This document shows, one piece after another, positions 7,317 through 31,092 of a DNA stretch of 64,000 bases. Location: assembly GCF_026241205.1 (NCBI RefSeq), contig NZ_JAPFQM010000001.1:1860001-1924000 (forward strand), given 5' to 3'. The notes beneath the pieces were generated by a model. The model was not told the origin of the DNA. It searched no databases and saw only the letters and a program-made list of their open reading frames with translations. The translations under genes and the position numbers were made by a program. This stretch comes from Thermomicrobium sp. 4228-Ro. GTDB lineage: Bacteria; Chloroflexota; Chloroflexia; Thermomicrobiales; Thermomicrobiaceae. Each line of letters starts with the position of its first letter. Position 1 is the stretch's first letter.

Positions 7317-8261
7317 ATGACGACTGCTCCGGCCGGTACGGTCACCCAGGTTGTTCCGCTCAGTCTCCGTGAGCGCGTCCGGCAGTGGCTCGACAGCGAG
7401 CCGGTGCTCGCCTATCTCTTCATGTCACCGGGATGGCTCATCTTGCTTCTCTTCATGAGCTACCCGTTCTTTCTCGGGCTCTGGATTTCGTTGACTGACC
7501 GGACGGTCGGGCTTCCTGGTGGCGAGTTCGTCGGTCTACGGAACTATGCGGAGCTTCTGCGGGATCGGACTTTTCACCTGACGGTCATGAATACGTTCAT
7601 CTACGGCTTCGTGACCGTACCGTTCAAGCTGCTGCTCGGTCTCCTGCTGGCGCTGCTCCTGAACCAGGTCTTCCCCCTGCGCAACGTCCTGCGCGCGGCG
7701 CTCCTGTTGCCTTGGATCGTGCCGACGGCGCTCTCGAGCCTCGCCTGGTTGATGTTATACGACGCTGTTTTGAGCCCGTTTTCGTGGATCCTGAAGAACT
7801 GGGGACTGATCGAGTCGAACATCGCGTTTCTCGGCACCCGAACGAACGCGATCATCTCGCTCTGTCTTGCCAACATTTGGCGCGGTACGCCGTTCTTCGC
7901 CGTCGCCATTCTCGCTGGCCTGCAAGCCGTGCCGCAGGAGCTCCACGAGGCAGCGGCGATCGAGGGGGCCAATAGCGTGCAGCGGTTCTTCGCCGTCACG
8001 TTGCCGGTGATCAAGGGAATCCTCGTCATCACGACGCTGTTTTCGATCATCTGGACCTTCGCTGACTTCCAGCTCGTTTACGTGTTGACCAAGGGTGGAC
8101 CAGCCAACTCCACCCATATCTTCGGTACCTACGCTTGGCAGATCGGAATCGGTGGGGCTGGAAAGCTCGGAATCGGTGCCGCGATTTCGCTCTACATGTT
8201 CCCAGTGTTGGCTGTCCTCTCAGCGATCCTGTTGCGCTACGTGCGTTCCCAGGAGGCATGA
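7317..8261 (+). CDS. ABC sugar transporter permease (MalF/UgpA-like)
   Basis: A 314-residue inner-membrane permease of the binding-protein-dependent transport family, with about six hydrophobic segments. It has a typical cytoplasmic EAA loop reading EAAAIEGANSVQRFFAVTLPVI in two parts, which contacts the ATPase. It starts after the attenuator hairpin. Its stop overlaps the next permease start (ATGA at 8258-8261). With that permease it would form the heterodimeric channel for the upstream binding protein. Confidence 0.92.
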   Translation: MTTAPAGTVTQVVPLSLRERVRQWLDSEPVLAYLFMSPGWLILLLFMSYPFFLGLWISLTDRTVGLPGGEFVGLRNYAELLRDRTFHLTVMNTFIYGFVTVPFKLLLGLLLALLLNQVFPLRNVLRAALLLPWIVPTALSSLAWLMLYDAVLSPFSWILKNWGLIESNIAFLGTRTNAIISLCLANIWRGTPFFAVAILAGLQAVPQELHEAAAIEGANSVQRFFAVTLPVIKGILVITTLFSIIWTFADFQLVYVLTKGGPANSTHIFGTYAWQIGIGGAGKLGIGAAISLYMFPVLAVLSAILLRYVRSQEA

Positions 8262-9109
8262 CGGTGGTCGGCAGCAATCGCTTGCGTAATCGGCTCCTCT
8301 TCCTCTACTTCCCACTCGCCTTGTTCACGATATTTCTGTTGTTTCCCTTCTATTGGATGTTCATCATTTCGGTGAAGCCCAATAGCTTACTTCTCAACAT
8401 GAAAGTCAATCCCTTGTACCTGACGCAGTTCACGCTCGAGCACTATCGCTATCTCCTCTCGAACACCGATTTTCCTCGCTGGGCACTGAATACGGCCATT
8501 GTGACCTTTGGGGCCACATTTCTCTCGCTGACGAGTAGTATTCTGATGGGGTACGCGTTGGGGCGTTTCCGGTTCCGTGGTGGGAACGTTGCTGGCACGC
8601 TCATCTTCCTCGCCTACCTCATTCCGCCAACGCTGCTCTTCATACCGCTCAGTCAAGTCGTTGCGCGCTTCGGTCTCTACAACACCTACTGGGCGCTGAT
8701 TCTCACCTATCCGACCTTTCTCATTCCTTTCGCATCGTGGCTCCTCATGGGCTATTTCCGAACGATTCCACGCGAGCTCGAAGAATGCGCGATGATCGAC
8801 GGGGCGAGCCGTTTTCAGGCGATGTGGCGGATCATCCTGCCTCTCGCCCTGCCCGGTGTGCTGTCAGCTGGAATTTTCTCGTTCACGCTGTCTTGGAACG
8901 AGTTCTTGTATGCCCTCGTCTTCATGGGTTCTGGTGAGATGAAGACGATCCCCGTCGGTACGGTCAGTGACCTCATCCGGGCTGACGTCTTCCAGTGGGG
9001 ACCGTTGATGGCAGCGGCCATGCTCGGGTCGGTGCCGGTGGCCGTCGCCTACATGTTCTTCGTGGATCAGTACGTGTCAGGACTCACGGCTGGCGCCGTG
9101 AAGGGATGA
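8258..9109 (+). CDS. ABC sugar transporter permease (MalG/UgpE-like)
   Basis: A 283-residue permease, partner of the preceding gene. It shows six hydrophobic segments and the EAA motif ECAMIDGASRFQAMWRIILP. The start at 8258 is chosen because AGGAGG lies immediately upstream and the ATG overlaps the previous stop. A longer open frame starting at 8135 would overlap the previous gene by more than 120 bases and is unlikely. Second membrane half of the carbohydrate importer. Confidence 0.92.
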   Translation: MTVVGSNRLRNRLLFLYFPLALFTIFLLFPFYWMFIISVKPNSLLLNMKVNPLYLTQFTLEHYRYLLSNTDFPRWALNTAIVTFGATFLSLTSSILMGYALGRFRFRGGNVAGTLIFLAYLIPPTLLFIPLSQVVARFGLYNTYWALILTYPTFLIPFASWLLMGYFRTIPRELEECAMIDGASRFQAMWRIILPLALPGVLSAGIFSFTLSWNEFLYALVFMGSGEMKTIPVGTVSDLIRADVFQWGPLMAAAMLGSVPVAVAYMFFVDQYVSGLTAGAVKG

Positions 9110-9188
9110 CCTCGGTTGACCGTGTATACTGTGCATGGGCGGTCTCCGGTCGAGAACGGTCGGGAATCACGCACGACGGAGGGTGCGT

Positions 9189-10283
9189 ATGGCGCAGGTG
9201 ATCTACGATCATGTGACCAAGCGATTCGATGGCGTCATCGCTGTCAATGACCTCAATCTGGAGGTCAGGGACGGTGAGTTCCTCGTTCTCGTCGGACCGT
9301 CCGGGTGTGGAAAGACGACAGCCCTGCGCTGTCTCGCTGGGCTCGAGGAAGTCACGAGTGGGGACATCATCATCGGCGATCGCGTCGTTACCCATATCCC
9401 ACCGAAGGACCGCGATATCGCGATGGTCTTCCAGAACTACGCCTTGTACCCGCACATGACGGTGTACGAGAACATGGCCTTCGGTCTCAAGCTCCGTAAG
9501 GTGCCGAAGCAGGAGATCGATCGGCGGGTCAAGGAAGTCGCCGAGATGCTCGGCATTCAAGACCTTTTGAACCGGAAGCCACGCCAGCTCTCCGGCGGCC
9601 AGCGGCAGCGTGTCGCGCTCGGCCGGGCGATCGTGCGTGAGCCTCAGGTGTTCTTGATGGACGAGCCGCTCTCGAACCTGGACGCCAAGCTGCGTGTCCA
9701 GACGCGTGGTGAGCTCATCAAGCTGCAGCGTCGGCTCGGCGTTACGACAATCTACGTGACGCACGATCAGGTCGAGGCCATGACGATGGGGCACCGGATC
9801 GCGGTGATGAACCAGGGTGTCCTGCAGCAGCTCGATACCCCAGAAAACCTCTACGATCATCCGGCCAACTTGTTCGTGGCGACCTTCATCGGGAGCCCGG
9901 CGATGAATATCTTCCCGGCTCAGGTCGTTACCGGTGAGGGAACCGTGCGGCTCGTGGCGGGCGACATCACGCTGGAAGCTCCAGCTGAGCAGCGCAGCCG
10001 TCTCGCGGAGTACAGCGGGCGTGAGGTACTGGTCGGCATCCGCCCGGAGGATCTCATCGTCCAACCTGGCACGGTGGCGGAAGATCGTCAGTTGCGTCTG
10101 CCGGTGGAAATCGTCGAGCCGCTCGGCTCGGAGACACTTGTGCATTTGCGTGGACCGAACGGAGCGCTCGTCGCCAAGGCAGAGCCGCACGTGCACTTCT
10201 CGGTTGGTGAGCTCGCTTCCGTGCGCGTGCGAACCGAGCACCTACACGCGTTCGATCCGCAGACTGAACTGGCACTCTTCTGA
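9189..10283 (+). CDS. Sugar ABC transporter ATPase (UgpC/MalK/MsmX-like)
   Basis: A 364-residue ATPase. Walker A GPSGCGKTT at 36-44, Q-loop FQNYALYPHMTV, signature LSGGQRQRVALGRA, Walker B VFLMDEPLSNLDAK and switch VTHD are all present. The C-terminal third is the TOBE-type regulatory domain typical of carbohydrate importers. The ATG at 9189 has GGAGGG upstream and gives the conserved N-terminus MAQVIYDHVTKRF; an earlier in-frame start at 9135 is not favoured. A TATACT box at about 9124-9129 could be a weak internal promoter. Last gene of the importer operon. Confidence 0.95.
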   Translation: MAQVIYDHVTKRFDGVIAVNDLNLEVRDGEFLVLVGPSGCGKTTALRCLAGLEEVTSGDIIIGDRVVTHIPPKDRDIAMVFQNYALYPHMTVYENMAFGLKLRKVPKQEIDRRVKEVAEMLGIQDLLNRKPRQLSGGQRQRVALGRAIVREPQVFLMDEPLSNLDAKLRVQTRGELIKLQRRLGVTTIYVTHDQVEAMTMGHRIAVMNQGVLQQLDTPENLYDHPANLFVATFIGSPAMNIFPAQVVTGEGTVRLVAGDITLEAPAEQRSRLAEYSGREVLVGIRPEDLIVQPGTVAEDRQLRLPVEIVEPLGSETLVHLRGPNGALVAKAEPHVHFSVGELASVRVRTEHLHAFDPQTELALF

Positions 10284-22276: not shown

Positions 22277-24043
22277 GTGGTGAGGTTCGAGCAAATTCGG
22301 CGGGATCGATCAGTGTACGAGCACCCGGTACAGCGACGAGCGAGCGGTGGGGCAGGGGGGATCCGTGTCGGGACCCGGGGCAGTGCACTCGCCCTGGCCC
22401 AGGCGCGTGCTGTCGTTGCGCAGCTCGAACGGATCGAGCCGACCTGTTCATGCTCGCTCGTCGCGGTGACCACCACCGGTGATCGCGATCGGGCGACCTC
22501 GTTGACGATCCTGGGTGGTAGCGGCGTCTTCGTGAAGGAGCTGCACGAAGCGCTCCTCGCAGGTGCGATCGACCTCGCGGTGCACAGTGCCAAGGATTTG
22601 CCGACCGTTCTTCCGTTGGAACTGGAGATCGTTGCCCTTCCGGTACGGGCTGACGTCCGCGACGTCCTCATCACACGTATCGCGTCGTCACTCGCGACGC
22701 TTCCTCCGGCCGCGCGCGTCGGTACGAGCTCGCGTCGTCGTCGAGCGCTCCTCGCCGCTGCGCGACCTGACCTGAAGCTTCTCGATGTGCGCGGCAATGT
22801 CGATACGCGCCTACGCAAACTCGACGATGGATCGTACGACGCACTCGTTCTCGCCGCTGCTGGACTGGAGCGCCTGGATAGACTCGAGCAGGTGACCGAG
22901 TACCTCGACCCGGATGTGTTCGTGCCTGCACCCGGTCAGGGGGCGCTGGCGGTGGTCTGTCGGCGCGACGACCCGTGGCGGGACATCTTCGCACGCATCG
23001 ATGATCACGAGATCCGGCTCGCTGTGACCGTCGAACGATCGTTCCTCGCTGCCTTCGGGAGCGGCTGCACGGTGCCGCTCGGTGCCTATGCGACGGTCGA
23101 AGGCGAGAGAGTGCGGCTGCGTGTAGCCGTGGCTCCCAACGAAAGTGGACCCGTCATTCGCGAAAGCGCGGTGTGGCACCGCGACGAGGCGGTCGAGGGG
23201 GCTGGTGCGCTGGCGCAGGAACTTCTTCGCACGCTCGCAGCAGCAGCTGGCCGGTCGTGGGCACCAGGAGCGAAGCCACTGACCGGTCGTCGGGTTCTTG
23301 TCGTCCGTCCAGCCGGGCAGGAACAGGAGCTGGTTGAGCGTTTACGCCGGCTCGGTGCCGAGGTCGTCGTCGAGCCCTTGATCGCGATCGTGCCACCTGA
23401 GGATTGGCGGGAGATCGATCATACCCTCCTGCGTCTCTCGGACTACGACTGGTTGGTGTTCACGAGCGCCAACGGCGTGCGATCCGTGCTCGATCGCATG
23501 AGCGTTCTCGGTATTCCAGTCGAGATGCTCACGAGGGTGCGGGTGGCGACGATCGGTCCGGCCACTGCACGAGCGCTCCAGGAGTACGGGATCGAGCCGG
23601 CGCTCGTTCCGGATCGCTACGTGGCTGAGGCGGTGGCCGATGCTCTGGTGGCAGCCGGCGTGGCGGGCAAGCGTGTCTTGCTGGCACGGGCAGCTGAAGC
23701 GCGTGACGTCTTACCCCGGAGGCTCGTCGAGGCAGGTGCTGAGGTCGAAGTCGTCCCGGTCTATCGCACCGAACAGCGGCCGCTCTCCGAGTCGGTACGA
23801 AAGGAATTGCAAGGGGGGACGATCGACTGGGTCCTGCTGACGGCGAGCTCGACGGTCCGGAGTCTCGTTGCTGCTCTCGGTGACACGAGTAGCCTGCACG
23901 AGCGTGTCAAGTTTGCGGCTATCGGCCCGGTGACGGCATCCACGGCGCGCGCGTACGGGTTGCGGGTCGCAGTCGTCGCGACCCGGTACACCAGCGAGGG
24001 GTTGGTCGAAGCTGTCGTCCGAGCGGAGAGGAGCGCGCGATGA
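22277..24043 (+). CDS. hemC-hemD: Hydroxymethylbilane synthase / uroporphyrinogen-III synthase fusion
   Basis: A 588-residue fusion. Residues about 28-330 are Hem[16 protein letters not shown], the VHSAKDLPT region, RVGTSSRRR, and [12 protein letters not shown] with the cysteine that carries the dipyrromethane cofactor. Residues about 337-585 are Hem[32 protein letters not shown] and [11 protein letters not shown]. It converts porphobilinogen to uroporphyrinogen III in one polypeptide, avoiding release of unstable hydroxymethylbilane. The start is GTG at 22277 or the adjacent GTG at 22280, behind AAAGGA. It overlaps hemB downstream (ATGA). Confidence 0.95.
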
Positions 24044-25062
24044 CTGAAGGCCCACTCGAATTCCGGCGCTTCCGGCGCCTGCGACGGACTGAAGGCTTGC
24101 GCCGTTTGGTGCGCGAGACACGGCTGAGTGTCGAGGATTTTATCTACCCGCTGTTCGTCGTTCACGGTCGCGGCGTGCGACGCGAGGTGGCTTCGATGCC
24201 CGGCGTCTACCAGCTCAGCGTCGATCAGCTGGGTTACGAGGCGGAAGAGCTCCTCTCGCTCGGGATCGGGGCAGTACTCCTCTTCGGTATCCCGGCGCGC
24301 AAGGACGAGCTGGCCAGTGAAGCGTACGATCCGGATGGTATCGTCCAGCGGGCGGTTCGCGAACTCAAGCGTGTGGCGCCAGAGCTGGTGGTCATCACCG
24401 ATGTCTGTAACTGCGAATACACCTCGCATGGGCATTGCGGCGTCGTTCAGGATGGCCAGATTCTGAACGACCCTACCCTTGAGCTCCTGGCTCGCACGGC
24501 CGTTTCGCACGCGGAAGCCGGGGCCGACATGGTGGCGCCGTCGGACATGATGGACGGGCGCGTGCTCGCGATCCGGCATGCCCTGGATCGTGCCGGATTC
24601 GTGGAACTTCCCATCCTGTCGTACGCAGCGAAGTACGCATCGGCGTTCTACGGCCCGTTCCGGGAGGCTGCCGAGTCGGCGCCGGCGTTCGGTGACCGGC
24701 GCTCCCACCAGATGGATCCCGGCAATCGCCGGGAGGCGCTGCGGGAGATCGCGACAGATATCGAGGAAGGCGCTGATGCTATTATCGTCAAGCCCGCACT
24801 CGCCTACCTCGATGTCATCCTTGCAGCTCGTGAGCGCTTCGATGTTCCGATCGCTGCCTACAACGTGAGTGCCGAGTACGCGATGGTGAAGGCGGCAGCA
24901 CGCAACGGGTGGATCGACGAGCAGCGGATCGTGTTGGAGATCCTCACCGGCATTCGCCGCGCCGGTGCGCACATGATCATCACCTACCATGCCAAGGAAG
25001 CCGCGCGCTGGCTACAGAGCGGACGACTGACTGCTGCAGCGGAAGAAGTGGTAACTCGTTAG
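24040..25062 (+). CDS. hemB: Porphobilinogen synthase (delta-aminolevulinate dehydratase)
   Basis: A 340-residue HemB that condenses two 5-aminolevulinates to porphobilinogen. The zinc-binding cysteine cluster [14 protein letters not shown] is intact, indicating the zinc-dependent type. The two active-site lysine regions, [16 protein letters not shown] and [13 protein letters not shown], are present, as is [19 protein letters not shown]. Its ATG overlaps the HemC-HemD stop by four bases with GAGAGGAG upstream, so the genes are co-translated. Confidence 0.97.
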
Positions 25063-25077
25063 CCTGGGGAGCGTGCC

Positions 25078-26367
25078 ATGTCGCGGACCGCAACGTTGTG
25101 GGAGGAAGCCCAGCGGTATCTGCCGGGTGGCGTCAACAGTCCGGTGCGTGCCTTCCGGGCGGTTGGTGGAGAACCGCTGATCGTGGCACGCGGCGAGGGG
25201 CCGTATCTCGTCGATGTCGATGGCAACCGTTGTCTCGACTACATCTGTTCCTGGGGCGCTCTCCTCGTCGGCCATGCACATCCGCAGGTCGTTGAACGGA
25301 TCAGCGAAGTCGCCCGCGCGGGAATGAGCTTCGGTTTGCTGTCGCCCTACGAGATCGATCTCGCCCGGGCGGTCGTGGAAGCCGTCCCGTCCGTCGAGCT
25401 CGTTCGCTTCGTCAACTCCGGTACCGAGGCGACGATGAGCGCGATCCGCCTGGCGCGCGCGGCGACCGGACGGCCGCTGATCGTCAAGTTCGCTGGATGC
25501 TACCACGGACATGTCGATGCGTTGCTCGTTGCCGCCGGCTCAGGGGTCATGACGTTCGGCATTCCGGGAACACCAGGAGTCACGGCCGGAACCGCGAGCG
25601 ACACGATCGTTGTGCCGTACAACGACGTCGCAATCGTTGAGGAGACGTTCCAGCGTCACGGTGAGCGGATTGCCGCCGTGATCGTCGAGCCAGTAGCGGG
25701 TAACATGGGTGTCGTTCCACCGATGCCTGGTTTCCTCGAGCGTCTACGCGAGTTGACCCGCGAGACAGGAAGCCTGCTGATTTTCGACGAGGTCATTACC
25801 GGTTTCCGGCTCGGGTGGGGCGGTGCGCAAGAGCGGTACGGTATCCAACCGGATCTCACCTGCTTCGGTAAGGTGATCGGCGGGGGACTGCCGGTCGGTG
25901 CCTACGGTGGGCGTCGCGATCTCATGGAGCGTGTCGCGCCGAGCGGACCTGTTTACCAAGCTGGAACACTGGCCGGGAATCCCCTCGCGATGGCGGCTGG
26001 TCTGGCCACGCTCGAAATGGCGCGACAGCCGGGTGCCTACGAACGGCTGGAGCAGTTGGGGAAGCGACTGGAGGAGGGGTTGCGGGAAGCTTTGCGCACC
26101 AGCGGGATACCGGGGGTGGTACAACGCGTCGGCTCGATGCTGACGCTGTTCTTCGCGAGCGAACCCGTGACTGACGCTGCACGGGCAGAAGCGTGCGACA
26201 CTCCATTGTTCGCGCGTTTCCACCGGACGATGCGTGATCGCGGAATTCTCGTGCCACCCTCGCAGTTCGAAGCGTGGTTCGTCTCGCTCGCGCACAGCGA
26301 GGCGGATATCGATCGAACAGTCGAGGCTGCTGCCGAGTCGCTACGCGAGATCGACGGGTGCGAGTGA
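25078..26367 (+). CDS. hemL: Glutamate-1-semialdehyde 2,1-aminomutase
   Basis: A 429-residue PLP enzyme that isomerises glutamate-1-semialdehyde to 5-aminolevulinate. Recognisable features are YLPGGVNSPVRAF near the N-terminus, GCYHGHVDALLVAAGSG, FDEVITGFRLGWGGAQ and CFGKVIGGGLPVGAYGG with the PLP lysine. It starts 15 bases after hemB with GGGGAG upstream. It ends in TGATG, overlapping hemA by one base. HemA and HemL are known to channel the unstable semialdehyde, which fits this coupling. Confidence 0.97.
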   Translation: MSRTATLWEEAQRYLPGGVNSPVRAFRAVGGEPLIVARGEGPYLVDVDGNRCLDYICSWGALLVGHAHPQVVERISEVARAGMSFGLLSPYEIDLARAVVEAVPSVELVRFVNSGTEATMSAIRLARAATGRPLIVKFAGCYHGHVDALLVAAGSGVMTFGIPGTPGVTAGTASDTIVVPYNDVAIVEETFQRHGERIAAVIVEPVAGNMGVVPPMPGFLERLRELTRETGSLLIFDEVITGFRLGWGGAQERYGIQPDLTCFGKVIGGGLPVGAYGGRRDLMERVAPSGPVYQAGTLAGNPLAMAAGLATLEMARQPGAYERLEQLGKRLEEGLREALRTSGIPGVVQRVGSMLTLFFASEPVTDAARAEACDTPLFARFHRTMRDRGILVPPSQFEAWFVSLAHSEADIDRTVEAAAESLREIDGCE

Positions 26368-27581
26368 TGCAACTGGCGAGCGTCGCGATAACACATCGGA
26401 CCGCGCCGATCGAGGTTCGAGAACGGCTCAGCTTTCCGTCCGATCGACAGGTGGAGCTGTTGCGTGATTGGCGAGCAGTCGCTGACGAGGTGGTACTGGT
26501 TGTCACCTGCCACCGGACGGAGTTGTACTGGGTAGGGCGCGATGCCGATCCCCAACAGAGTCTTCAGTGGCTGGCGACCCGAGCAGGACTACCAGTCGAG
26601 TATTTGAGTCGTTTCGCCTGGTGCGGCAGCGGGATGCGAGTGGTGCGGCACCTCATGCGGGTCGCAGCAGGCCTGGACTCGCGGGTCGTCGGAGAGACGC
26701 AGATCCTCGGCCAAGTGCGTCGGGCCCGTGACTTGGCGCACGAGGTGGGAGCGCTCGGGCCGGTAACGGATCGCTTGTTTTCGCTCGCGTTGGCAGCGGG
26801 GCGGGAGGCACGCGTCCGGAGCGGGATCAGCGGCAGCGATCGGTCGCTCGCTCGTGTTGCACTCGACGAGGTAGAGCGACGATTGGGAGATCTCGCGCGG
26901 TTCACGGTTCTCGTGCTCGGTGCTGGCGAGACAGGTCGACTCGTGGTGAGCGCACTGCGCCGGTATCGACCGAAAGCGATCTGGTGGAGCAATCGGTCGA
27001 ATGACCGTTTCCCACGGTGGGCTCACGACGATGGTCTGCGGCTGCTCTACTGGACGAGCTGGCCGAACGTTCTTCAGGAGGTTGATATCGTCTTCGTCAC
27101 TACTGGGGCGCCAGAGCCGGTGCTGACTGCCGCGCACCTACCGAGCGGTGTGCGGGCGCAGTTGATCGTCGACCTCAGTGTGCCGCGTAACGTCGATCCC
27201 GACGTTACCCGGATCACAGGCGTCACGGTGATCACTGTCGACGATCTACCGGAAGACGTTGGGGGAACCGATTCTCGGGAACGCTGGCAGCGCGCAGAAC
27301 TCGTCGTCGAATTGTTCGTTCAGCGCTTCTCTCGCTGGTATCGTGCGCATGCACTCGCGCCGGAGCTGGCTGCGACACAAGCGTTGCTCCGAGCGACGTG
27401 CGGGCGGGAGATCGCCCGCGCGTTCCGGATGGCTGAGAGTGACCCGGCTCGCGTGTCCGAAGTCCTCCAACGCGCTGCCGAGAGCATCACTGGAAAAGTG
27501 CTCGCGCCAGTCTACCACGCCATCGAGAGCGATCCGGAGCAGGCTGCGGCGACCCTCCGCCTACTCCGCTCGTTGCGCTAG
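26367..27581 (+). CDS. hemA: Glutamyl-tRNA reductase
   Basis: A 404-residue HemA that reduces glutamyl-tRNA to glutamate-1-semialdehyde, the committed step of C5 tetrapyrrole synthesis. Cys48 in VTCHRTELY is the catalytic cysteine; the usual motif is TCNRTE, so Asn is replaced by His here. GETQILGQVRRA and DLSVPRNVDP are conserved, and the NADPH domain has VLGAGETGRLV. The ATG at 26367 overlaps the hemL stop and gives the canonical start MQLASVAITHRTAPIEVRE. Last gene of the hem operon; no clear terminator was seen in the 144 bases that follow. Confidence 0.95.
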   Translation: MQLASVAITHRTAPIEVRERLSFPSDRQVELLRDWRAVADEVVLVVTCHRTELYWVGRDADPQQSLQWLATRAGLPVEYLSRFAWCGSGMRVVRHLMRVAAGLDSRVVGETQILGQVRRARDLAHEVGALGPVTDRLFSLALAAGREARVRSGISGSDRSLARVALDEVERRLGDLARFTVLVLGAGETGRLVVSALRRYRPKAIWWSNRSNDRFPRWAHDDGLRLLYWTSWPNVLQEVDIVFVTTGAPEPVLTAAHLPSGVRAQLIVDLSVPRNVDPDVTRITGVTVITVDDLPEDVGGTDSRERWQRAELVVELFVQRFSRWYRAHALAPELAATQALLRATCGREIARAFRMAESDPARVSEVLQRAAESITGKVLAPVYHAIESDPEQAAATLRLLRSLR

Positions 27582-27725: not shown

Positions 27726-29633
27726 GTGTTCGTCCGGCGGCTCGGCAAGGTCGATGAACCGCAGCCTGTTCGAACTCGAGAGCGGCTCGGTGAGGCGCTG
27801 GTCGCTCGCGGGCTCTTGAGCCGAGAGCAGCTCGAACGAGCGCTCGATTACCAGCGCCGGACTGGCGATCGACTCGGTCGCATCCTGATCGCACTCGGGT
27901 ATGTGCGGCGCCAGCAGCTCTATCAGGTTTTGGCGGAGCTGTGGGGCTATCCCTTCGTCGATCTACTCTGTGAGCCCTTGGATCTGCATTTGGCACGTCG
28001 CTTCGATCCCGAGACCCTCGTGCAGCGCCGATGCTTCCCGGTACGGGTGCAAGGTAGCGAGGTTTGGATCGCGACCGCCGAGCCACCGAGTCGCGAGCTG
28101 GAGGAATTCGTGCAGGCCGTCCTCGGCCCCGTGCGGGTACGACCGCTCGTCACGACCGAATGGGATATCGACCACGCGATTCGCCGCGTCTTCCGGGACG
28201 TCGTCCTCGATCGCGCTTCGTTGGGGTTGTATTTCCGGAATCCCGACGAGAGTGCACGCCAGGTTCTGGTTCGCTGGCAAAAGATCCTCCTCTGGTGTGT
28301 CATCGCGGGACTGGTGTTCAGCCTGCTGGTGGCACCACGCCTGACCGCAATCGTCATCTCGGCGGTGGTCAACGGGGCCATGTTCGCCTACGTCGTGTTT
28401 CGCTTCGTTGTCGCGATGGTCGGTGCGCAACACGAGCACGTGCAGGCGATTCAGGACGACGAGGTGCGGGCACTCCGCGATGACGAGTTACCGATGTACA
28501 CGGTACTCGTGCCGGTTTACAGAGAGGCGAACGTCGTCGGTCACCTCATCGAGAACCTGCGTCGGCTGGACTACCCACACAGTAAGTTGGAGATCTTGTT
28601 ACTCATCGAAGAGGACGACGTCGAAACCCTGCACGCTGCGAAAGCTGCTCGGCCGCCCGAGACCGTGACGTTCATCGTGGTACCGGATGGGGTGCCGAAG
28701 ACGAAGCCGAAGGCCTGCAATGTCGGCTTGCTGTTCGCACGGGGTGAGTTCCTGACAATCTACGATGCGGAAGATCGTCCGGATCCGGATCAACTGAAGA
28801 AAGCTGTCGTTGCCTTCCGAAAGGGGCCACCGGAACTCGTTTGCGTTCAGGCCGCGTTGAATTACTACAACGCAACAGAGAATCTGCTGACGCGGATGTT
28901 CACATTGGAGTACTCGGACTGGTTCGACTATGTCTTGACTGGTCTCGATCGGCTTCGCCTGCCGATCCCACTAGGTGGTACGAGTAACCACTTCCGAGTC
29001 GATCGGTTGCGGGAACTCGGTGGCTGGGATCCGTTCAACGTCACGGAGGATGCTGATCTCGGGATCAGAGCGGCCGCACACGGCTATCGAGTCGGGGTCA
29101 TCAATTCGACGACGTGGGAGGAGGCGAACACCCGAGTCGGGAACTGGATTCGGCAAAGGTCACGCTGGATCAAGGGGTACCTGCAAACGCTGCTCGTCCA
29201 TTCACGGCATCCGGTCCGTCTCGTCCGTACGGCAGGGTTACGGAACACGCTCGCTTTCATCTTGCTCATCGGTGGCGCACCATTCGCTTTCTTATCTTTG
29301 ATACCGTTATGGTCTTTGACTTTGGTCTGGGTGATCACCCGTACCCATGCCTTCGATATCCTCTTTCCACCCTTGGTTCTCTACATCAGCCTCTTCAATC
29401 TCCTGATCGGGAACGGGCTGATGATCTATCTCGGCATGATGGCCGGATTCAAGCGGCGACGGTACGAGCTGATTCCGTTCGCGCTCCTGAACCCGTTCTA
29501 CTGGGTTCTCCATTCGATCGCGGCCTACAAGGCAGTGTGGCAACTGATCACGAAACCGTTCTACTGGGAGAAGACACAGCATGGCCTCAGTCGTTATCTC
29601 CAGTCCCGGCCCGTTGCCGAGCACACCAGCTAG
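27726..29633 (+). CDS. Family 2 glycosyltransferase with N-terminal MshEN (c-di-GMP-type) domain
   Basis: A 635-residue membrane protein. Residues 20-43 fit the MshEN nucleotide motif exactly (RLGxxLxxxGxxxxxxLxxxLxxQ), and 49-72 repeat it except for Leu instead of the last Gln. Two hydrophobic segments follow (about 190-240). Then comes a processive GT2 domain with IYDAEDRPDPDQL, TEDADLGIRA and IRQRSRWIKG (the QxxRW signature), and three or four C-terminal membrane segments. It likely makes or exports a polysaccharide at the inner membrane. MshEN domains bind cyclic-di-GMP in secretion ATPases, suggesting second-messenger control. The start is GTG with GGAGA upstream. Confidence 0.87.
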   Translation: MFVRRLGKVDEPQPVRTRERLGEALVARGLLSREQLERALDYQRRTGDRLGRILIALGYVRRQQLYQVLAELWGYPFVDLLCEPLDLHLARRFDPETLVQRRCFPVRVQGSEVWIATAEPPSRELEEFVQAVLGPVRVRPLVTTEWDIDHAIRRVFRDVVLDRASLGLYFRNPDESARQVLVRWQKILLWCVIAGLVFSLLVAPRLTAIVISAVVNGAMFAYVVFRFVVAMVGAQHEHVQAIQDDEVRALRDDELPMYTVLVPVYREANVVGHLIENLRRLDYPHSKLEILLLIEEDDVETLHAAKAARPPETVTFIVVPDGVPKTKPKACNVGLLFARGEFLTIYDAEDRPDPDQLKKAVVAFRKGPPELVCVQAALNYYNATENLLTRMFTLEYSDWFDYVLTGLDRLRLPIPLGGTSNHFRVDRLRELGGWDPFNVTEDADLGIRAAAHGYRVGVINSTTWEEANTRVGNWIRQRSRWIKGYLQTLLVHSRHPVRLVRTAGLRNTLAFILLIGGAPFAFLSLIPLWSLTLVWVITRTHAFDILFPPLVLYISLFNLLIGNGLMIYLGMMAGFKRRRYELIPFALLNPFYWVLHSIAAYKAVWQLITKPFYWEKTQHGLSRYLQSRPVAEHTS

Positions 29634-31092
29634 GACCGAACTGCGGTTGGTCGGCCTTCGCTGGTGGGAACACTCGATTCGGGTCGTGCTCTTCAGTTTA
29701 CCCTTCCTCGGGTTCGCGCTAATGACGCAGCAGCTCGGCTTCGCCACCAACGCGCACGCGCATGTGACGGCGAAGGCACTGCTCGCTCTCGATCGACTGC
29801 GCCTGGAGGTGATCGGTTTCCTCTACCCACCGCTGCCGTTCTTGCTCATCCTGCCTTGGCCACGTCTGGTGACACCGGCACTGCTCGGCAGCATGGCGGC
29901 AGGGGCCACCACTTGGCTCCTGTGGTACGACCTGGAGCGGACAGGTCTTCCACGCTTGTGGCGGGCTCTTACCCTAGCTGCGGTCGTCGCCGTTCCTTCG
30001 ATGCTGTTCCTCGCGACGCAGGCATTTCCGGACATGCTGACACTCCATCTTCTCGTCGTGGCCTGGCATTACTACTGGAACTTCGTACGGTATCGGCACA
30101 CGTTCAGTGGTTTCGTTGCCGGGCTCGTGCTCGGCCTAGCGTTCTATGCGAACTTCTATTCACTGCTCTTCGCTCTCGCACTGGCTTCGCTCGTGCCGCT
30201 CTTCCGCCGGATCGAGAAAGAAGAGGCGGGGCCCCGTGAAGGATGGGCTGCGGCGAGTCAGATCCTGGTTACCGCCTTCCCGGCGCTCTGGGCGGTAGCG
30301 AGCTGGAGCTACGTGAACTGGGTGTTCACCGGAAGCCCGTTCACGTACATTGCCGAGCCAGTCGCGGCTGTGGTCGATCCGGTGCGCTGGACCATGCCAT
30401 GGAGCGCACGCTGGTCATGGCTGCCGGAGTTCGGTCGGGAGTTGCTGAGCCAGCCGCTCCTCCTTGCGGCGTTCGTCCTCAACGCGCGGTACTTCCCACG
30501 GCGTGTCGTTCCTCTGGCGGTGCTGACCGTTCTGCCGGCGATCGCTCGTTTCCTCGGACTCGCGTTTTCCCTGCCGCTCGTCGTCGGGAGCTATGCAGTG
30601 TTGGCCATCCTTGCCTTACCGGAGCGGATACCGCGATGGCTCGGGTCGGTCCTCGTTATCCTCGCGCTCGCGCAAGGAATCGCGGGGACATCACTCGTGC
30701 AGGAGGCGGGAGAAAGCCGCGAGTGGCTGCAGGTCGTGACCACAGGACGGACCCGACCGATCGACCAGCGTGAGGCGGAGCTAGCGAGGCTGTTGCGCGA
30801 AGCGCCAGCTCGGTCGGTTCTGGCCGACGATCGGAGCGCGTATCGCATCGTCGCCCGCACCGGCACGGCACATCCGTTCTTATTGCCAGCCGACCGATCG
30901 TTCGACGCCGCGCTCGACGAACCCGGTCGGTTCGTTCACTACATTCTCGTGACCACAACGCCGTCCGACCGCGACCTGGTGAGCGAGCGCTTCGCTGCGA
31001 GCCCGCCGCCCGGTTTCGTTGTCGACGGCCGCATCGGCGACTGGACGCTCTACCGCCAGAACGAAGCAGCCAGCCTCTTCGTTCGGTCGTGA
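29581..31092 (+). CDS. Polytopic membrane protein of unknown function, partner of the MshEN glycosyltransferase
   Basis: A 503-residue protein with about ten hydrophobic segments between residues 30 and 380, and a C-terminal soluble domain of about 110 residues (from REWLQVVTTGRTRP onward). The layout resembles GT-C membrane glycosyltransferases such as the family 39 group, with a short acidic/aromatic loop after the first helix, but I see no diagnostic motif. Its ATG, with GGGAGAAG upstream, lies inside the end of the glycosyltransferase gene, a 53-base overlap. The two are therefore coupled and probably act together in surface polysaccharide or glycolipid synthesis. Confidence 0.7.
   Translation: MASVVISSPGPLPSTPARTELRLVGLRWWEHSIRVVLFSLPFLGFALMTQQLGFATNAHAHVTAKALLALDRLRLEVIGFLYPPLPFLLILPWPRLVTPALLGSMAAGATTWLLWYDLERTGLPRLWRALTLAAVVAVPSMLFLATQAFPDMLTLHLLVVAWHYYWNFVRYRHTFSGFVAGLVLGLAFYANFYSLLFALALASLVPLFRRIEKEEAGPREGWAAASQILVTAFPALWAVASWSYVNWVFTGSPFTYIAEPVAAVVDPVRWTMPWSARWSWLPEFGRELLSQPLLLAAFVLNARYFPRRVVPLAVLTVLPAIARFLGLAFSLPLVVGSYAVLAILALPERIPRWLGSVLVILALAQGIAGTSLVQEAGESREWLQVVTTGRTRPIDQREAELARLLREAPARSVLADDRSAYRIVARTGTAHPFLLPADRSFDAALDEPGRFVHYILVTTTPSDRDLVSERFAASPPPGFVVDGRIGDWTLYRQNEAASLFVRS

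Follow-up and report, generated by a model that had tools for sequence, protein, structure and literature searches.

The open reading frame 27726-29633 (+), in the window of Thermomicrobium sp. 4228-Ro DNA analysed here (the whole 64-kb stretch), joins an MshEN domain to a GT2 glycosyltransferase, and raises the question of whether polysaccharide synthesis is gated by c-di-GMP at this locus by a route other than PilZ. This idea, put forward in the original prediction, is supported by the profiles, orthologues, structure prediction and GGDEF proteins described below, but its implied novelty was too high, because NfrB has been shown to be an MshEN-controlled GT2 (PMC8669469), the possibility of fusing MshEN with glycosyltransferases was already stated by Wang et al. 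2016 (PMC5013675), and Sfz2 has been described (PMC8250860). The principle is thus known from NfrB and from Wang et al.; what is less known is the XagB/Sfz2-type family, along with its GT-C partner and the connection to stalk genes. In the set of papers searched, nothing turned up on tandem MshEN, on an MshEN domain in Chloroflexi, or on Thermomicrobium exopolysaccharide together with c-di-GMP.

Domain organisation and predicted structure

The gene (27726..29633, +; identified from the open reading frame, Pfam/NCBIfam, an AF2 model and homology) starts with a GTG codon and encodes a 635-residue putative MshEN-GT2 polysaccharide synthase of the XagB/Sfz2 type. The predicted fusion was borne out by the profiles: the NCBIfam c-di-GMP motif domain NF053729 matched residues 20-71 (70.3 bits against a cut-off of 38, E 8.8e-20), Pfam MshEN (PF05157) matched residues 73-158 (56.6 bits against a cut-off of 23.1), which covers the second subdomain too, and the Pfam GT2 profiles matched residues 256-536. 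Neither a PilZ nor an ATPase domain was found in the 635-residue protein by Pfam or NCBIfam. Among solved MshEN structures, phmmer matched MshE (5htl, E 1.7e-12) and PilF (6f8l, E 4.6e-27). The region has the sequence features of an MshEN domain, with two 24-residue motifs, a 5-residue spacer and then the MshEN_C subdomain (residues 73-158, 27942..28199, +; Pfam match and phmmer alignment to 5htl).

Two predicted membrane helices (residues 183-235, 28272..28430, +; AF2 model) link this sensor to the GT2 catalytic domain (residues 256-484, 28491..29177, +; Pfam, motif alignment and fold search), which is followed by C-terminal helices, mostly in the membrane (residues 505-609, 29238..29552, +; AF2 model). 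The catalytic motifs DAED, TED and QRSRW are intact (D347/E349, T440-E441-D442, Q477-R480-W481), and, as expected of a processive GT2, the D, DxD-type, TED and QxxRW motifs lie between membrane helices. The AF2 model of the 635-residue protein, built from 31 sequences (pLDDT 88.5, pTM 0.88), shows in order four helices, an alpha/beta subdomain (87-155), the helices 183-235, the GT domain and the C-terminal helices. Since two helices separate them, the MshEN and GT domains would lie on one side of the membrane. The predicted four-helix part (21-27/33-46/50-56/62-73, pLDDT ~95) would fit MshEN_N; the whole-model fold searches list GT2 structures alone and are uninformative on the MshEN part. The best Foldseek matches were BcsA (E 1.8e-14) and hyaluronan synthase (E 1.0e-13), and the top match of VIA-align 2 was PcManGT (Z 28.1, rmsd 4.0, 338 aligned), with BcsA at Z 23-26 (rmsd 3.2-4.3, 363-394 aligned) and the synthase matches as a whole at Z 22-26. 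The predicted cellulose-synthase-like fold is therefore no proof of a processive enzyme.

The putative c-di-GMP site

Motif I (R20-Q43, RLGEALVARGLLSREQLERALDYQ; 27783..27854, +; NCBIfam and pattern scan) agrees with the strict 24-residue pattern, as had been predicted, and is the sole strict match when the 64-kb window is read in all six frames; in 20,000 shuffled versions of the protein, neither a strict motif nor a tandem pair under the relaxed pattern arose. It is separated by exactly five residues (44-48, RRTGD; 27855..27869, +; pattern scan) from motif II (R49-L72, RLGRILIALGYVRRQQLYQVLAEL; 27870..27941, +; NCBIfam and 5htl alignment). Motif II had been described as exact except for the change of its last Gln to Leu; the L72 replacement was found, but there is a second departure at Y59, a position held by L/V/I in the general pattern, making two places and not one. 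The pattern of Vibrio MshE itself permits I/F at the position matching Y59 (PMC5013675). The numbering of Arg20 and Arg49 is supported by the profiles and the orthologue alignment. Eleven of the 12 c-di-GMP-contact residues are present, the sole exception being Leu72; in the phmmer alignment with Vibrio MshE (5htl), L72 corresponds to Gln61 and E119 to Asp108, the latter an additional ligand contact in MshE (PMC5013675).

Motif conservation, on which the prediction depended, was found among the orthologues, which come from five other genomes of the genus, from two other genera of the same family and, at 43%, from the class: ten contact residues (R20, L21, G22, L36, L40, Q43, R49, G51, L65 and L69) are unchanged in 10 aligned orthologues with 42-85% identity, and the variable contact positions are 50 (L or I, with I50 in three congeners) and 72. 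Gln72 is absent from most Thermomicrobiaceae orthologues; because an orthologue from the same family (G035, locus L015) keeps it, together with 12/12 contact residues, its loss is confined to part of the family. On the same 12-residue scale NfrB scored 10/12, with a spacer of 4 residues, and NfrB binds c-di-GMP with a Kd of 1.0 uM (PMC8669469).

c-di-GMP signalling in the genome

The genome (3.07 Mb, 99.9% complete) encodes five GGDEF, four EAL and one PilZ domains, and the MshEN domain of the synthase is its only one by Pfam; the ligand is therefore plausibly available in the cell, and the synthase is one of the few obvious candidate c-di-GMP receptors. The one T2SSE-type ATPase over the cut-off is encoded elsewhere and has no MshEN domain. 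A second protein with c-di-GMP motifs, the DUF4388 protein L120 (G000:C6:123632-123796, minus), carries a two-motif MshEN_N within the DUF4388 match, with a spacer of 7 residues.

Gene neighbourhood and the GT-C partner

The synthase gene overlaps by 53 bp the downstream gene (29581..31092, +), which encodes a 503-residue polytopic protein identified as a conserved partner by neighbourhood clustering and a structure model. No family was matched for this protein in Pfam or NCBIfam; its model (pLDDT 86.8) matched GT-C enzymes, with ArnT, whose structure was solved with undecaprenyl phosphate, in first place (Foldseek E 9.6e-6). The cluster of this predicted GT-C protein is present at 63 of 84 loci from several phyla, loci which are not independent, many being from Mucilaginibacter. 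The GT-C gene is mostly directly downstream of the GT2 gene and nearly always in the same direction; it lies just upstream in some Actinomycetota.

In another Chloroflexota family (f30) the same GT2 occurs without MshEN, fused in a single polypeptide to a PMT_2-like GT-C domain. The PMT_2-like part resembles the GT-C partner weakly by profile (hhalign E 8e-5, probability 60%), and the fusion therefore supports a joint function and does not prove common descent. Two proteins with this GT2 and no MshEN, L157 (G271) and L158 (G264), have a 590-residue C-terminal extension, and that of L157 matches a PMT_2-like GT-C domain.

A BcsB-like gene precedes the GT2 gene in many relatives, including Anaerolineae and Thermoflexus; in the Thermomicrobiaceae its place is occupied by heme genes, and a BcsB search of the Thermomicrobium sp. 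4228-Ro genome gave no match. Adjacent GT-C-fold and BcsB-like genes are each common, not universal, in the XagB/Sfz2 family: the former is present here and the latter was not found, hemA being upstream; many members are without BcsB. The upstream run (22277-27581) holds genes which, by sequence recognition, we take to be hemC (fused to a uroporphyrinogen-synthase part), hemB, hemL and hemA, and among the loci compared it adjoins the synthase only in Thermomicrobiaceae.

Comparison with known synthases

NfrB of E. coli (NF008411) also has a GT2 and an MshEN domain on one membrane protein, and its polysaccharide output requires c-di-GMP binding (Kd about 1 uM; PMC8669469, PMC8669472). In NfrB, however, MshEN is C-terminal, whereas it is N-terminal here; the GT halves are 24% identical (E 2e-4), the MshEN parts align (hhalign E 6.5e-12), and the partner of NfrB is the outer-membrane NfrA, as against GT-C/BcsB in the XagB/Sfz2 family. 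Identity with NfrB was rejected (38 bits against the NF008411 cut-off of 1170, with the MshEN part alone matching and the domain order reversed). Given the C-terminal position of its MshEN and the only marginal similarity of its GT domain, NfrB does not belong to this synthase family. BcsA cellulose synthase shares the membrane GT2 fold, TED/QxxRW, the c-di-GMP control that is probable here and, with the relatives, a BcsB partner, but carries a C-terminal PilZ domain in place of MshEN; identity with BcsA was likewise rejected, as the 635-residue protein lacks PilZ and scored 55 bits with the CelA model TIGR03030 against a cut-off of 699.1. The regulatory domains of MshE, PilB and PilF (5htl, 6f8l) have the same two-motif c-di-GMP-binding domain and MshEN_C, fused there to secretion/pilus ATPases and here to a glycosyltransferase.

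The most closely related proteins that have been studied belong to biofilm and stalk loci. The presumed XagB of Xanthomonas cucurbitae (xagABCD in Xanthomonas) has an N-terminal MshEN and a GT2 and aligns end to end with 48% identity, but it scores lower for the c-di-GMP site (8/12, 41 bits against a cut-off of 38) and no GT-C gene was found among its clustered neighbours; xagB is a biofilm polysaccharide gene, and XagB is needed for the raised biofilm of a Xanthomonas rpfG mutant (PMC3609779). The Mariprofundus ferrooxydans PV-1 protein in the sfz2 position, presumed from gene order and size to be Sfz2, is 45% identical over 607 residues. The sfz2 gene of the twisted-stalk cluster of stalk-forming Zetaproteobacteria is xagB-like (PMC4643136, PMC8250860), and the stalk paper described Sfz2 as a T2SS-type N-terminal domain with a GT2, discussed a translocation role, which it regarded as questionable, searched for other kinds of c-di-GMP motif and listed sfz3 as 'unknown' (PMC8250860). 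By its sequence, the 'T2SS-type' domain of the presumed Sfz2 is an MshEN domain, with a partly eroded site in Mariprofundus (7-8/12 in the two members scored). The order of GT2 and then GT-C homologue is the same as here (the presumed Sfz3, from the sfz3 position, aligns with the GT-C partner over 422 columns, hhalign E 5e-16); the Sfz cluster differs in having BcsB (Sfz1) upstream instead of hem genes.

Distribution of the family and loss of the site

Relatives were gathered by a scan of genome contigs with the full protein, and their MshEN site was scored out of 12. The architecture was found in Chloroflexota, where the original prediction had proposed to search for it, but is not confined to them: the XagB/Sfz2-type family with an N-terminal MshEN spans about ten phyla. 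At the Chloroflexota level 54 of 400 genomes had a match passing E 1e-60, and about 20 of the matches listed included the MshEN part. Sites of at least 7/12 were found in Chloroflexota, Actinomycetota, Aquificota, Gemmatimonadota, Synergistota, Atribacterota, Bacillota, Acidobacteriota and Pseudomonadota; the site is decayed or missing in Bacteroidota, Ignavibacteriota, Cyanobacteriota, some Actinomycetota and some Pseudomonadota. The GT motifs hardly vary, QxxRW and TED being kept throughout the family, and the c-di-GMP site ranges from 12/12 down to 0/12 (scores being nominal where the N-terminus is missing or unalignable, e.g. L066, L069, L071, L077, L078, L098, L104). On the GT-domain tree the site switched between the intact state (9/12 or above) and the lost state (5/12 or below) at least six times.

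An intact site was present in 27 of the 47 genomes with GGDEF and in 0 of the 10 without, all 27 members scoring 9 or more being from genomes with GGDEF. We do not take the Fisher p of 9e-4 as strong evidence, because a tree-based test left no informative independent pair: the four changes in GGDEF presence all fall within clades already without the site. The association is consistent with c-di-GMP sensing, not proof of it.

Proposed mechanism and alternatives

We consider it probable that the protein is a c-di-GMP-gated membrane polysaccharide synthase. An inner-membrane, cellulose-synthase-like GT2 would make a surface polysaccharide and would be switched by c-di-GMP binding to the cytoplasmic N-terminal MshEN domain; we infer that MshEN binds c-di-GMP, that binding activates rather than inhibits, and that the product is an exported polymer, which the GT-C partner (29581-31092) may modify or help to assemble via a lipid-linked sugar. 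In BcsA, the PilZ domain moves relative to the GT active site on c-di-GMP binding. Binding could shift the MshEN domain against the GT active site in this protein also, because both would be on the same membrane side, and a comparable movement has been proposed for the C-terminal MshEN of NfrB. There are points against this gated synthase: Leu72 would remove one of the two glutamines that contact ribose/phosphate, and Tyr59 departs too; MshEN may persist for other reasons, as many relatives retain an MshEN-like region with the site lost; and the search here gave no BcsB, which goes with the synthase in related Chloroflexota.

Another reading has a non-polymerase GT2, which would make a polyprenyl-phosphate sugar (or add one sugar) for transfer by the GT-C partner, so that c-di-GMP, the sensing of which is compatible with this reading, would gate the glycosylation of a lipid, protein or glycan. 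It would fit the most conserved neighbour having a GT-C fold nearest to ArnT, the f30 GT2 fused to a C-terminal PMT_2-like domain with its weak match to the partner, PcManGT as top VIA match, and the failure to find BcsB in this genome; QxxRW and TED kept family-wide, the BcsA/HAS-like membrane fold and the BcsB gene adjoining the synthase in many relatives argue for a polymerase, and we regard the non-polymerase as unlikely. Alternatively, MshEN might be a structural or docking module (for the GT-C partner or a cytoplasmic protein) that no longer binds c-di-GMP here, its residues persisting by recent ancestry. Many relatives have 0-5/12 contact residues beside an intact GT, with the repeated changes on the tree; one Mucilaginibacter member matches the PilB N-terminal region and not the c-di-GMP motif model; and Gln72 is gone from most of the family's orthologues. 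Yet the invariant columns of its own lineage, over 42-85% identity, include the contact residues, while free decay is seen in other lineages, and c-di-GMP enzymes are encoded in the genome, which makes a docking module rather improbable. MshE also binds cGAMP, more weakly (PMC5013675), but with the same contact residues as the c-di-GMP-specific MshE and five GGDEF proteins in the genome, another cyclic dinucleotide such as 3',3'-cGAMP is very improbable as the main ligand. It is scarcely credible that the N-terminal domain is part of a secretion ATPase powering export, as was considered and called questionable for Sfz2 (PMC8250860): the domain owes its first name to type II secretion ATPases, but the protein has no ATPase domain and the match is limited to the c-di-GMP-binding regulatory part.

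Implications and variant architectures

If the gated synthase is right, MshEN control of polysaccharide synthesis reaches beyond NfrB, one proven enterobacterial protein, to a different synthase family in about ten phyla; in Sfz2, the proposed stalk synthase, the 'type II secretion' domain gains a function in c-di-GMP sensing, not secretion, and the neighbour of Sfz2, Sfz3, gains a fold (GT-C); and responders and non-responders to c-di-GMP among the family members become predictable. For a wider picture we put the chances at about even. In it, the c-di-GMP-gated exopolysaccharide synthases would include another widespread class, the XagB/Sfz2-type proteins, with an N-terminal MshEN, a GT-C partner and sometimes BcsB, and with an origin separate from BcsA-PilZ and from NfrB. 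One of its members, directly controlled by c-di-GMP, would make the twisted stalk of iron bacteria; in some Chloroflexota the signal would be integrated via 5-6 tandem MshEN domains; and lineages dropping c-di-GMP would have kept the synthase with a dead sensor.

Several relatives depart from the common architecture. Apparent C-terminal extensions of L049/L050 were rejected as an artefact of reading past the stop, and an in-frame TAG in two genomes as a natural stop ahead of the model's tail. Three Chloroflexota proteins of 1296-1347 residues (L151, G275; L154, G173; L156, G219) carry 5-6 tandem MshEN ahead of the GT2, and most motifs seen in these arrays are degenerate. L165 (G024, 7474-10278) extends the MshEN-GT2 plan at both ends, with an additional N-terminal segment and a C-terminal GAF domain, and the Mariprofundus MshEN-GT2 L090 (7785-9854) has an extra MshEN_N motif pair before the main one.
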